Positions 32,373 to 36,319 of a stretch of DNA of 64,000 nucleotides are shown here, in pieces. A program made the translations under genes and the position numbers. The stretch comes from Nocardioides daedukensis (lineage in GTDB: Bacteria > Actinomycetota > Actinomycetes > Propionibacteriales > Nocardioidaceae). Numbering within the stretch: the stretch's first letter is position 1; the number at the start of each line of letters is the position of its first letter. A model generated the notes under the pieces. The model saw only the letters and a program-made list of their open reading frames with translations, ran no database searches and was not told the origin of the DNA. The stretch spans positions 2,108,001 to 2,172,000 of the forward strand of contig NZ_JACCAA010000001.1 of assembly GCF_013408415.1 (NCBI RefSeq). The letters run 5' to 3'.

Positions 32373-32529
32373 GACACGGGTGAGGCTCGGCCCAGAACTC
32401 ATCAGTGACTACCCCGCAGTAGGATTCGGCTCACACACCTGAGCCACTGACAGTTCCGCCACACCGCAATAGGCTCAGGCCTTGCGTCCTGGACACAGGA
32501 CGCGTTTGACGACGAGGAGCCGTTCTTCC

Positions 32530-35500
32530 ATGCAGATCTTCGCCATTGTGGTGTCGCTGGCCGTGTCGGTCGTGGCCGTCGTGATGACCGTCCGGGCGGT
32601 GCGCTCGATGCTGGCCACCATCAGGATCGGCCAACCGGCCCTGAACCGCAGCGACCAGCCACTGAGCCGCACCCTGACCATGCTCAAGGAGACGGTCCTC
32701 CACACGAGGATGCTCCAGTGGACGTGGGTGGGCATCCTGCACTGGTTCGCCTTCGCCGCCTTCATCGTCCTCTCGACCGCGGTGGCCCAGGCGTTCTTCC
32801 AGCTCTTCGACGCCGAGTTCGCATGGCCGCTCATCGGTCACTGGATCGTCTATGAGTGGATCAGCGAGATCATCGGTCTCCTCGGCGCGCTCGCGATCCT
32901 CCCGCTCTTCGTCTACCGCGTGATCAAGCGCCCCTCGACCAACGGTCGCCAGAGCCGCTTCTTCGGCTCGACGATGTGGCAGGCCTACTTCGTCGAGGCG
33001 ATGGTCTTCCTGGAGAGTTCGGCGATCATCTTCATCCGCGCCGCGGAGTACAAGCACGTCGACGGTGCAGAAGCCTCGCACTTCCCGATCAGCCACCTGA
33101 TCAGCGGTCTCTACCCCGACTCGCACTCCTCGCTCGAGAACATCATCTACTTCATCGCGATGGTCAAGATCGTCTCCGCGATGGCCTGGCTGATGGTGAT
33201 CGCCTCCAACCTGACGATGGGTGTCGCCTGGCACCGCTTCACCGCGTGGTTCAACATCTGGTTCAAGCGGGAGTCCTCGGGTGGCACCGCGCTGGGCGCC
33301 CTGAAGCCGCTGACCAGCAACGGCAAGGCGATCACGCTCGACGACATCGACGACCTCGACGAGGACTCCACCCTCGGCGTCGGCTCCATCGAGGACTTCT
33401 CCTGGAAGGGCATCCTCGACTTCACCACCTGCACCGAGTGTGGCCGCTGCCAGTCGCAGTGCCCGGCCTGGAACACCGAGAAGCCGCTGTCGCCCAAGCT
33501 GTTGATGATGGGCCTGCGCGAGCACGCCTATGCCAAGGCTGGTGCGCCGGCTGCCGACTCCGAGGGTCAGTCCGAGGCCGAGCAGCGCACGCTGATCGGC
33601 AAGACCGACCACGACAGCGACGGCAGCGGCACCGACGTCACGGACTGGTTCTACAACCCCGAGGGTGGCGACTTCGTCATCGACGAGGACGTGCTCTGGA
33701 GCTGTACGTCGTGTGGTGCCTGTGTCCAGCAGTGCCCGGTGGACATCGAGCACGTCGACCACATCGTCGACATGCGTCGCTACCAGGTGCTGGTGGAGTC
33801 CAACTTCCCCGCCGAGCTCAACCAGCTCTTCAAGGGCCTGGAGAACAAGGGCAACCCGTGGAACATGTCCGCCTCTGCGCGGATGGACTGGGCCAGGGAC
33901 CTGCCGTTCGACGTCAAGGAGGTCGGCAAGGACATCGAGGACCTCGAGTCCGTCGACTGGCTGTTCTGGGTCGGCTGCGCCGGCGCCTACGAGGACCGCG
34001 CCAAGAAGACCACCCGCGCTGTCGCGGAGCTGCTCGACATGGCCGGCGTGAGCTTCGGTGTGCTCGGCAACGGTGAGACCTGCACCGGCGACCCGGCCCG
34101 TCGTGCCGGCAACGAGTTCGTCTTCCAGGGCCTTGCCGCCCAGAACGTCGAGACGTTCAAGGAGTTCAAGGTCAAGAAGGTCGTCTCGACCTGTGCGCAC
34201 TGCTTCAACACCTTGAAGAACGAGTACAAGGACTTCGGCATCGAGCTCGAGGTCGTGCACCACACCCAGCTGCTCAACCGCCTCGTGCGCGAGGGCAAGT
34301 TGACTCCGGTCAAGGAGGGTGCCGGCGCCGAGAAGCGCTCGATCACCTACCACGACCCGTGCTTCCTGGGCCGTCACAACCAAGTCTACTCGCCGCCGCG
34401 CGAGCTGCTGCAGATCCTGCCCGGCGCAGAGGTCAAGGAGATGCCCCGCAACTCCGAGAAGTCCTTCTGCTGTGGTGCCGGTGGTGCCCGCATGTGGATG
34501 GAAGAGACCATCGGCGAGCGGATCAACGTCAACCGGACCAAGGAAGCCGTCGCCACCGGCGCCGACCAGATCGCGGTCGGCTGCCCGTTCTGCCGCGTGA
34601 TGCTGTCCGACGGCCTGACCTCCGAGCAGGCCAACGGTGGCGCTCGCGAAGAGGTCGAGGTCCTCGACGTCGCACAGATGCTGCTGGCATCGGTGAAGGG
34701 CGAGGTCGCCACGCGCGTCCGCAAGCCCGAGGCGAAGAAATCGGTCGCGACCAAGGCCGAGCCCGCGGCCGGTGACGTCACCCAGAGCGAGTCGACGGTG
34801 ACCAAGACCGAGGACGTCGGCGCAGCAGCCGAGGCTTCGGGTGGCTCGTCGCTCTTCGACGCTCCTGCCGACTCGGCTCCGGCCAAGTCCTCGGGTGGCT
34901 CGCTCTTCGACACCCCGGCAGACTCCGCCCCCGCGGAGAAGCCCGCCGAGGAACCGGCCCAGAAGCCTGCCGCCTCCGGTGGCTCGCTGTTCGACCTCGA
35001 GGCGGACGCCCCGGCGGAGAAGCCTGAAGCGAAGGCTGAGGCGAAGCCTGCCTCCGAGTCTGCTCCGAAGTCCGAGTCGAAGCCTGCTGCAGGTGGCACC
35101 GACCTGGGTGGCGGCGGATCGCTCTTCGACATTGCCGAGGAGAAGCCCGCGGCCAAGGCCGAGCCGAAGACCGAAGCCGCGGCGAAGCCTGCAGCGGAGG
35201 AGGCGAAGGCCCCGGCCCCCGCCCCTGCCCAGGACGTGGACCTCGGCTCGGGTGGCTCGCTCTTCGACATCGAGGCGAGCGAGCCGGCACCGGCAGCGAA
35301 GTCGGAGCCCGCAGCTGCGGAGGACGCGCCCGCAGAGGCAGAGGTTGCCGACGCAGATGTCGCGCAGGCCCCGGCCGAAGAAGCACCCGTCAAGGAAGCA
35401 CCGGCCCAGACTGCTGGCGCCACCGGCTCTGCCTCCACTCCGAAGACCGATGTCGACCTGAACTCGGGTGGTTCGCTCTTCGACATCGAGGCGCCTGCTG

Positions 35501-36147
35501 AGACGCCCGCGGCCAAGGCAGCTCCTGCCCCCGCCCCGGACGCTGAGAAGTCGGACGCCGGAACCCCGGCCGCAGCGGAGAGCCCGAAGGCTGATGCGCC
35601 GCAGTCGAGCGGAGCGAGCTCCACTCCGGCCACGGACGTGGACATCTCCAGCATGGGCTCGCTCTTCGACATCGAGGCGCCCGCGGCCACCGCCGCACCT
35701 GCTCCGGCTGCTGCTGCACCTGCCGCAGCGCCCGAGCCGGCTGCTGCGGAGGCTGAGGAGACGACCGAGGCCAAGGCCGAGGTTGCGCCAGAGCCCGAAG
35801 CAGAGGCAGCGCCCGCAGCAGAGGCTGAGACTGAGTCCGAAGCTGGGTCCGAAGAGGCTGGGTCCGAAGAGGCCGCAGCACCCGCCCCGACCGGTGCCGA
35901 GGTCTCGCAGGCCGCCAGCCAGGCGTCCCCCGAGCCCGAGTCGGCGCCCAAGGACCAGGAAGAGCCCGAGCCCGCCACGCCTGAAGCACAAGCCGACGCA
36001 GACACCGAGTCGGAGCCTGAGCCCGAAGCCGAGTCCGAAGCAGGGCCGGCAGCCGAGGAGGTCCCCGCGGCTCCCAAGGCCTCTGGCGAGGCCAACACGC
36101 CCAAGCAGGCGAACATCAACGAGGCCGGATCACTCTTCGACCTCTGA
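32530..36147 (+). CDS. etfD: EtfD-like membrane iron-sulfur oxidoreductase with repetitive C-terminal tail
   Basis: A 1205-residue protein. The N-terminal ~270 residues hold several membrane segments. Two [4Fe-4S] motifs follow (C301xxC304xxC307xxxC311 and C392xxC395xxC398xxxC402) and two CCG-type domains (CAHCFNTLKNEY, CCGAGGARMW, GCPFCRVML). This is the layout of mycobacterial EtfD (Rv0338c), which takes electrons from EtfBA in fatty-acid oxidation to the quinone pool. From about 730 an Ala/Glu/Pro-rich tail contains SLFD at residues 774, 791, 819, 864, 910, 982, 1044 and 1201. The tail's role is unknown. The ATG at 32530 avoids an unlikely 16-residue extension. Confidence 0.85.
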   Translation: MQIFAIVVSLAVSVVAVVMTVRAVRSMLATIRIGQPALNRSDQPLSRTLTMLKETVLHTRMLQWTWVGILHWFAFAAFIVLSTAVAQAFFQLFDAEFAWPLIGHWIVYEWISEIIGLLGALAILPLFVYRVIKRPSTNGRQSRFFGSTMWQAYFVEAMVFLESSAIIFIRAAEYKHVDGAEASHFPISHLISGLYPDSHSSLENIIYFIAMVKIVSAMAWLMVIASNLTMGVAWHRFTAWFNIWFKRESSGGTALGALKPLTSNGKAITLDDIDDLDEDSTLGVGSIEDFSWKGILDFTTCTECGRCQSQCPAWNTEKPLSPKLLMMGLREHAYAKAGAPAADSEGQSEAEQRTLIGKTDHDSDGSGTDVTDWFYNPEGGDFVIDEDVLWSCTSCGACVQQCPVDIEHVDHIVDMRRYQVLVESNFPAELNQLFKGLENKGNPWNMSASARMDWARDLPFDVKEVGKDIEDLESVDWLFWVGCAGAYEDRAKKTTRAVAELLDMAGVSFGVLGNGETCTGDPARRAGNEFVFQGLAAQNVETFKEFKVKKVVSTCAHCFNTLKNEYKDFGIELEVVHHTQLLNRLVREGKLTPVKEGAGAEKRSITYHDPCFLGRHNQVYSPPRELLQILPGAEVKEMPRNSEKSFCCGAGGARMWMEETIGERINVNRTKEAVATGADQIAVGCPFCRVMLSDGLTSEQANGGAREEVEVLDVAQMLLASVKGEVATRVRKPEAKKSVATKAEPAAGDVTQSESTVTKTEDVGAAAEASGGSSLFDAPADSAPAKSSGGSLFDTPADSAPAEKPAEEPAQKPAASGGSLFDLEADAPAEKPEAKAEAKPASESAPKSESKPAAGGTDLGGGGSLFDIAEEKPAAKAEPKTEAAAKPAAEEAKAPAPAPAQDVDLGSGGSLFDIEASEPAPAAKSEPAAAEDAPAEAEVADADVAQAPAEEAPVKEAPAQTAGATGSASTPKTDVDLNSGGSLFDIEAPAETPAAKAAPAPAPDAEKSDAGTPAAAESPKADAPQSSGASSTPATDVDISSMGSLFDIEAPAATAAPAPAAAAPAAAPEPAAAEAEETTEAKAEVAPEPEAEAAPAAEAETESEAGSEEAGSEEAAAPAPTGAEVSQAASQASPEPESAPKDQEEPEPATPEAQADADTESEPEPEAESEAGPAAEEVPAAPKASGEANTPKQANINEAGSLFDL

Positions 36148-36164
36148 GACACCCGCACAGCGCA

Positions 36165-36202
36165 AGAACGCCCGGCCCCGGAACTTCGGGGCCGGGCGTT
36201 CT
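36165..36202. terminator. Terminator hairpin after the EtfD-like gene
   Basis: AGAACGCCCGGCCCC (36165-36179, with one flanking base) pairs perfectly with 36188-36202 across an 8-nt loop, followed by GCTTCCT. A 15-bp GC-rich stem. Confidence 0.85.
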
Positions 36203-36319
36203 GCTTCCTCCGCCGATGCCTCCGGACAGTGACGCAAGTCGCTGCTGCCGAACCCGTGACGCAACCCCGCCCGCCTCGTTGACTCATCGAATCCAACTAC
36301 GGGGCAAAGGGGAACTGGC

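Follow-up and report, generated by a model that had tools for sequence, protein, structure and literature searches.

A graded array of SLFD motifs in the disordered tail of a Nocardioides EtfD, with ETF as a candidate partner

EtfD joins beta-oxidation to respiration, and how the weakly binding electron transfer flavoprotein (ETF) is delivered to it is a question on which its tail may bear. Why should such an enzyme end in a long disordered chain that repeats one short motif? The etfD gene studied here occupies positions 32530-36147 (plus strand) of the window, by which we mean the whole 64,000-nucleotide stretch analyzed (Nocardioides daedukensis, assembly GCF_013408415.1, contig NZ_JACCAA010000001.1, positions 2,108,001 to 2,172,000). 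It encodes a protein of 1205 residues of the ETF:menaquinone oxidoreductase type, recognized by its Pfam CCG and Fer4 domains and its match to the structure 9ojn_A, and its tail contains repeated copies of the tetrapeptide SLFD.

SLFD copies in the EtfD tail

The Ala/Glu/Pro-rich tail (residues 720-1205; 34687-36144, plus strand, like all features below unless stated otherwise) was delimited by composition and by AlphaFold2 per-residue confidence (pLDDT). It is predicted to be disordered: from residue 741 on, pLDDT is about 34-50 and there is no secondary structure. SLFD occurs in it at residues 774-777 (34849-34860), 791-794 (34900-34911), 819-822 (34984-34995), 864-867 (35119-35130), 910-913 (35257-35268), 982-985 (35473-35484) and 1044-1047 (35659-35670), and an eighth copy, starting at residue 1201, closes the chain together with one more Leu (last five residues; 36130-36144). 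An earlier note on this DNA had placed eight copies at 774, 791, 819, 864, 910, 982, 1044 and the C-terminal end, and the residues agree exactly. The motif mostly takes the form GSLFD, and the next residue is often I, L or T. Composition predicts 0.0013 SLFD in residues 741-1205, where eight are observed; among 100,000 shuffles of this segment, 127 contained one copy and none contained two or more. The last 465 residues hold eight Phe and no Trp or Tyr, and every Phe belongs to an SLFD.

The array is conserved in the Nocardioides group. From a scan of named genomes the best 80 loci were kept. Eight of these are from Streptomyces and six were set aside (L009, L023 and L077 for apparent frameshifts, L048 and L076 for runs of N, and L085, an Aeromicrobium locus with an open end and without SLFD); the 66 left, mostly Nocardioides plus Pimelobacter simplex and a few metagenome assemblies, make 67 tails with the window. 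Every one of the 67 has 5-11 SLFD copies and finishes with an SLFD followed by a single residue; the frameshifted L009 and L023 nonetheless hold six and five copies. The earlier note had named near homologues as the place where the motif might prove absent or randomly placed; it is present in every one of these tails.

Aromatic and shuffle statistics were computed on 66 tails, without L013, and spacing and terminal copies on all 67. The 66 tails contain 507 SLFD, compared with a mean of 0.1 and a maximum of 2 in 200 shuffles. Phe residues of SLFD make up 507 of the 583 aromatics; 26 more lie within SMFD, a few in other near-forms, and 18 of the 66 tails have no aromatic outside SLFD. When 28 Nocardioides-group proteins were aligned, 23 columns from residue 741 on were invariant, and 18 of them are SLFD letters (copies 3, 4, 5 and 8 complete, and two letters of copy 1). 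The median distance from the core to the first motif is 70 residues in the 67 tails, as against 64 in 13 tails of the mycobacterial type described below. In a second set of 14 complete SLFD-bearing tails, several of them from the same genomes as the named loci, 13 have SLFD and a single further residue at the end; the remaining tail (L186), from elsewhere in the family, ends in DDLWDD and retains two SLFD among DDLF forms. Among the further rows, L189 is open-ended and L195 frameshifted.

A short conserved motif in several copies, set in disordered and variable sequence, is what characterizes an array of short linear motifs, and the window tail has all of these features. We conclude that it carries a multivalent SLFD motif array, a conclusion that is well supported. 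The earlier suggestion of selection for a short linear motif is also strongly supported, given the copy number and terminal copy common to all 67 tails, the predicted disorder, and the movement of the array into Streptomyces together with the enzyme (see below). Multivalent motif tails are familiar from eukaryotes, in FG nucleoporins and in endocytic adaptors with DPF/DPW, NPF and clathrin-box motifs, where, as proposed for the EtfD tail, copies of a short aromatic motif along a disordered chain bring folded partners to a high local concentration. The EtfD tail differs in belonging to a bacterial respiratory membrane enzyme, in its graded gaps and in its terminal last copy, and we claim no homology. 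In bacteria, SSB offers a comparison: its partners dock on an acidic C-terminal peptide with an aromatic end, carried by a disordered linker. There is just one such tip per SSB chain, as against a whole array in EtfD.

Does the motif occur elsewhere in the genome? A search of the window genome for proteins ending in SLFD followed by L, I, M or F matched etfD as its sole gene, and the GSLFD-like pattern GGNWSNYTNTTYGAY gave ten matches, seven of them within etfD. A receptor for the motif is therefore probably dedicated to EtfD. Of the other three matches a single one reads GSLFD; it lies in a 988-codon open frame (L087) and was judged to be due to chance. The pattern AGCCTNTTCGAC has five matches in the window genome and none in etfD, whose SLFD serine codons are TCG or TCA.

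Spacing and history of the array

The earlier note described the copies as irregularly spaced, and this description does not hold. From the core to the C-terminus the gaps in the window tail are 17, 28, 45, 46, 72, 62 and 157 residues; they grow outward (rank correlation with position, rho, 0.964; p = 0.00045 for this single tail). The correlation is positive in all 67 tails, which are relatives and not 67 independent cases, with a mean of 0.94 and a lowest value of 0.64, and it is still positive in all 67 when the last gap is dropped (mean 0.90). Successive gaps in these tails widen outward by a median factor of 1.32, and the median gaps, from the C-terminus inward, are 125, 77, 59, 44, 38, 27 and 21 residues. 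Thirteen additional or divergent SLFD tails, part of them from the same genomes, gave rho values of 0.37 to 1.0. Two accounts of the pattern were considered and rejected. Even spacing on a square-root scale, corresponding to equal radial steps, fits less well than a logarithmic scale (variation 0.60 linear, 0.37 root, 0.24 log). Recent duplication near the core is disfavored because the flanks of neighboring copies are more alike distally (5.9 of 12) than near the core (about 4 of 12).

To place the array among EtfD tails in general, we drew 396 genomes across the phylum. An EtfD core was found in 196 at 1e-60, and 80 stretches from 79 genomes were picked among the matches listed. Only one of these 80 tails, L096, from the genus of the window, contains SLFD; the long tails that lack it carry other repeats, likewise with a terminal copy. 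The family f4/g5 tails bear the repeat GLG[IML]..GA(K/R)RPGAKK, with related forms in other f4 genera, and one f4/g5 member (L113) matches Mycobacterium smegmatis EtfD right through the repeats. These tails are graded too. Of 14 listed tails, 13 were usable (L125 failed the anchor), and their mean rho is 0.93, compared with at most 0.49 in 300 permutations. The gaps are 34, 35, 45, 51 and 56 in M. smegmatis EtfD, which has one copy at the C-terminus, and 37, 46, 59, 63, 70 and 90 in L143. Six other f4 tails, in which clustered short gaps are mixed with long ones, range in rho from 0.35 to 0.84.

The mycobacterial EtfD (Rv0338c / MSMEG_0690; PDB 9ojn) is thus the closest parallel to the window protein in kind: the same enzyme family, a long disordered tail, interspersed repeats, a terminal copy and gaps that grow outward. 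The motifs themselves are different, the mycobacterial one being basic and SLFD acidic-aromatic, and the mycobacterial tails measured have 4-6 copies, compared with 5-11 of SLFD. No GLG..KRPG repeat occurs in the window tail, so it does not belong to the mycobacterial repeat type. PMC13083937, with reference to Szekely 2020, describes conserved repeats interspersed in a disordered mycobacterial tail, and PMC11567552 calls the M. tuberculosis tail proline-alanine-rich, repetitive and predicted to be disordered; both sources, and PMC8593149 below, are cited from excerpts, and the excerpts of PMC13083937 do not mention graded spacing.

How did these arrays arise? We built a tree of 65 EtfD cores (six rows were skipped because the anchor was absent), in which the labels Aeromicrobium-like, Mycobacteriaceae-like and Streptomyces-like are inferred from matches to named sequences. 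On it the SLFD label changes twice, read here as a probable single gain in Nocardioidaceae and a single loss in the branch with the Aeromicrobium-like genomes. In that SLFD-lacking branch, L183 and L187 have short tails ending in TLF and RLF. Short-tailed rows adjoin both the mycobacterial-type and the SLFD clades, and a separate origin of the two arrays therefore fits. The DPWD and PSWE tails are placed among short-tailed relatives.

Several tails of these lineages deserve separate description. L101 carries aromatic-acidic NAAPSWE repeats, the last copy reading NAKPSWE, and L175 carries (V)ADPWDE repeats, the last copy reading PDPWDE; each has short-tailed relatives in the same family. The Aeromicrobium-like L190, L193 and L194 have long acidic tails without SLFD and with repeats such as AWANVGPVNTDL, which in L190 occurs three times in 76-residue steps. 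L124 (G285), grouped with Streptomyces-like genomes, has a 257-residue EtfD tail with Ala/Glu/Lys-rich repeats and no SLFD. In the window tail, a conserved stretch before the first motif (34750-34848; TKAEPAAGDVTQSESTVTKTEDVGAAAEASGGS) is kept in the SLFD-lacking relatives L183 and L187 and partly in L194; the element common to them reads AEP..DVTQTEDTVT.TEDVGPAA.A.

Eight Streptomyces loci encode an SLFD EtfD (L068, L070, L071, L074, L078, L079, L082 and L083). The four included in the tree fall inside Nocardioides, in a clade of ten rows with support 100/99, and by this phylogeny the Streptomyces SLFD EtfD is a horizontal transfer of Nocardioides origin. EtfB-EtfA lies directly upstream in all eight loci, and each of the eight genomes also has a resident EtfD with a tail of 25-31 residues and no SLFD. 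In L070, EtfB-EtfA is preceded by a DAO/FAO_M/GCV_T protein of dimethylglycine-dehydrogenase type, present also in L068 and L078 (three loci checked). The eight loci encode a second, apparently dedicated ETF-EtfD line within one cell. In the open reading frame (ORF) list, the neighborhood of L070 also has frames that read like glycine-betaine transport genes. Among known EtfD homologues, Bacillus FadF and Pseudomonas DgcB are likewise thought to accept electrons from ETF, and DgcB is part of dimethylglycine breakdown, as the Streptomyces operon appears to be; according to the excerpts of PMC13083937, their disordered region is shorter or missing (under 3 kDa) and they lack the cluster D1 cysteines.

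A second ETF is also present in 11 of 22 Nocardioidaceae genomes searched. It lies beside the same type of oxidase in 11 of 11 regions of 10 kb, without an EtfD. Nine of these eleven genomes have an SLFD EtfD, each with a single EtfD match, so in those Nocardioidaceae two very dissimilar ETFs apparently depend on one SLFD EtfD. Streptomyces, which has an EtfD of its own, acquired the SLFD enzyme beside an ETF of this second kind.

Candidate partner and competing explanations

What might the motif bind? The earlier note had proposed a docking role, with EtfBA, acyl-CoA dehydrogenases or membrane proteins as possible partners. An ETF-EtfD link has been reported (PMC8593149), and the excerpts of PMC13083937 describe how ETF interacts with EtfD and, by AlphaFold3, contacts it through the mycobacterial disordered tail; both studies treat mycobacterial EtfD as a drug target. 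Because of this published interaction and contact, and because EtfB-EtfA stands beside the SLFD EtfD in all eight Streptomyces loci, we consider ETF the best candidate partner, with roughly even confidence.

We therefore favor, at about an even chance of being right, a model in which the tail is a disordered tether with a multivalent SLFD docking array, ETF being the most likely partner, that holds ETF near the acceptor clusters. Each SLFD copy would dock a folded partner with low affinity, most likely the soluble EtfB-EtfA, which has to travel from many dehydrogenases to the iron-sulfur clusters of EtfD and back. Once caught by the tail, ETF could pass from copy to copy and stay within reach of the acceptor clusters; many copies would raise the local ETF concentration there, and the closer gaps near the core might favor inward passage. 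Three elements of this model are inferred: binding of a partner by the motif, the identity of that partner as ETF, and a benefit of the grading for delivery. In a toy random-chain hopping model with arbitrary constants, the observed gap order brought a bound partner to the core more often than an even or a reversed order at all five off-rates (0.528, 0.453 and 0.389, respectively, at an off-rate of 0.01). This model illustrates the idea but is not evidence for the partner.

Tentatively, a wider proposal seems possible to us, although we would not rely on it: EtfD tails may be graded delivery ladders for a soluble electron carrier. In the SLFD form the gaps widen by about one third per step and the outermost copy sits at the free end. 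Such ladders would have two or more origins with motifs unrelated to each other (SLFD for Nocardioidaceae and GLG...KRPG for Mycobacteriaceae), other motifs (PSWE, DPWDE) being used in a third family, and selection would act on the ladder and on the pairing of motif and receptor rather than on one motif. If this were true, the tail would be a substrate-channeling device built of disorder, and graded gaps, should they prove to have a function, may turn out to be a rule by which disordered tethers in general are built.

A number of observations weigh against ETF docking on a graded array. Of the 80 phylum-search tails, 55 are shorter than 70 residues (25 have at least 150), so the reaction itself can do without a tail, and the Aeromicrobium-like clade retains EtfD and ETF but has no SLFD. 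Grading is absent from L175 (DPWDE; rho 0.2) and weak in L101 (PSWE; 0.56). It is also mild in the eight Streptomyces SLFD tails, where the gaps are near 18 and become wider mostly toward the C-terminus (rho -0.02 to 0.87). Identity between the ETF adjacent to the Streptomyces SLFD EtfD and the one ETF that the window genome encodes is only 33-34%, and a shared SLFD pocket would have to persist over this wide gap. ETF positions specific to the SLFD clade number three in EtfA and seven in EtfB, which is not above the background of other clades (EtfA and EtfB, respectively: 10 and 15 in Aeromicrobium-like, 25 and 41 in Mycobacteriaceae-like, and 24 and 26 in Streptomyces housekeeping sequences). 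Finally, ETF was not seen bound in the structure of the tailed M. smegmatis EtfD, for which the authors suggest weak binding (PMC13083937).

Some individual ETF features were noted in these comparisons. EtfB E154 is common to SLFD Nocardioidaceae and to the Streptomyces betaine-type ETFs (8 of 8) and is rare in the other groups compared; L178 has S251 and A255 in EtfB, where most others have D/E and K/Q. Residues 154, 251 and 255 of EtfB could possibly mark a docking-site region, and possibly they are a chance set. Net EtfA charge is -14 to -18 in 11 Mycobacteriaceae-like loci, which have the basic motif; the range in 13 SLFD loci is -6 to -9. We rejected charge as a sign of co-variation: betaine-type EtfAs beside SLFD EtfDs go as low as -15, the difference is absent from EtfB, and the distribution agrees with the phylogeny.

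Could the array instead have a partner different from ETF? Dehydrogenases (of acyl-CoA or other substrates), a respiratory complex or a hub protein might bind it, and EtfD would then organize a larger beta-oxidation assembly. This is a lesser possibility, but it has points in its favor: 5-11 copies exceed the need of one ETF, no ETF signature tracks SLFD, and the motif is identical in Nocardioides and Streptomyces despite very different ETFs. Nevertheless, no other gene of the window genome matches the terminal-motif pattern, ETF is the interaction partner named in the excerpts of PMC8593149 and PMC13083937, and our data point to no particular alternative. It is unlikely, in our judgment, that the copies act as stickers separated by spacers, SLFD binding SLFD or the EtfD core and clustering EtfD into membrane patches or condensates without a dedicated partner. 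The confinement of the window tail's aromatics to motifs in an otherwise Ala/Glu/Pro-rich chain is the make-up expected of such a system, and self-association would easily tolerate a motif that varies by clade (SLFD, PSWE, DPWDE, GLG-KRPG). However, the scarcity of SMFD and other near-forms beside SLFD in the 66 tails means that the motif is strictly kept, and an exact C-terminal copy in 67 of 67 tails is unnecessary for self-association. A weaker point is that two single-chain AlphaFold2 runs, the first with a poor core, placed no SLFD motif confidently on the EtfD core.

Two further explanations dispense with docking altogether. The terminal SLFDL and the array might serve stability or turnover, as a degron or a protease recognition site, rather than electron transfer; C-degrons typically have a defined set of residues at the C-terminus, but the internal copies and their grading would be left unexplained, and we think this very improbable. 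The chance that the copies are functionless products of neutral growth, a GC-rich low-complexity repeat extended by slippage, is slimmer still. The spacers are indeed of low complexity and vary freely, and some adjacent units are almost identical (L069 and L190 are examples). The data already contradict it, however: the motif letters are invariant and the spacers are not, the gaps are graded in the same direction in all 67 tails, which range from 5 to 11 copies, the terminal copy is always retained, and the similarity of flanks runs opposite to the young copies near the core that this explanation implies.

The docking tether with ETF as its candidate partner thus remains the explanation that we prefer. 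Free spacers set against a kept motif, a terminal copy and graded gaps, recurring with different motifs, make the function of the tail directly testable. Literature searches, judged by title and the start of the abstract and with most subscription journals outside their coverage, found no paper on SLFD arrays or on graded motif spacing in EtfD. Nor did these searches bring up the turnover of motifs; the mycobacterial tail repeats and the AlphaFold3 contact with ETF are already published.

The folded core and overlapping reading frames

The folded part of EtfD (residues 1-719; 32530-34686), which starts with ATG at 32530, comprises a membrane domain, N-terminal by homology, two [4Fe-4S] sites and two CCG domains. 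Pfam matches are CCG (5.1e-36, in two stretches) and Fer4_8 (3.2e-11), and phmmer aligns residues 2-744 to residues 6-767 of the M. smegmatis EtfD chain 9ojn_A, membrane part included (E 4.3e-204). In the M. smegmatis structure the linear [3Fe-4S] cluster is bound by Cys503, 538, 581 and 584, the noncubane cluster by His583 and Cys637, 672, 673, 709 and 712, and the cubane [4Fe-4S] clusters by Cys301/304/307/311 and 412/415/418/422 (PMC13083937, excerpts). Counterparts of the linear and noncubane ligands (C212, C247, C284, H286, C287, C340, C376, C377, C414 and C417, fragment numbering) are invariant in alignments of 28 and 69 sequences; compared by spacing, they follow the M. smegmatis order and agree within one residue, save for one stretch that is 6 shorter. 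The cubane ligands C30, C33, C36 and C40 and C121, C124, C127 and C131 (same numbering) are invariant in the same alignments, and their spacing matches that of M. smegmatis. By these homologies the gene product is an EtfD of CCG/DUF224 type, with predicted electron transfer to menaquinone.

With a 69-row alignment, AlphaFold2 modeled the soluble core at pLDDT of at least 80 in 37 of 46 ten-residue blocks; an earlier run on a shallow 28-row alignment had given a poor core and a disordered tail. The closest named core in the tree is that of Nocardioides sp. Soil797 (93% identity), as would be expected for a Nocardioides or a near relative. In the window's genome, ETF_alpha and EtfD (the latter at 1e-60) were each matched once. 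On the opposite strand, long ORFs run over the gene at 34386-36296 (minus strand, 636 residues) and 32431-35991 (minus strand, 1186 residues); we take both to be shadows of GC-rich coding sequence and not genes.

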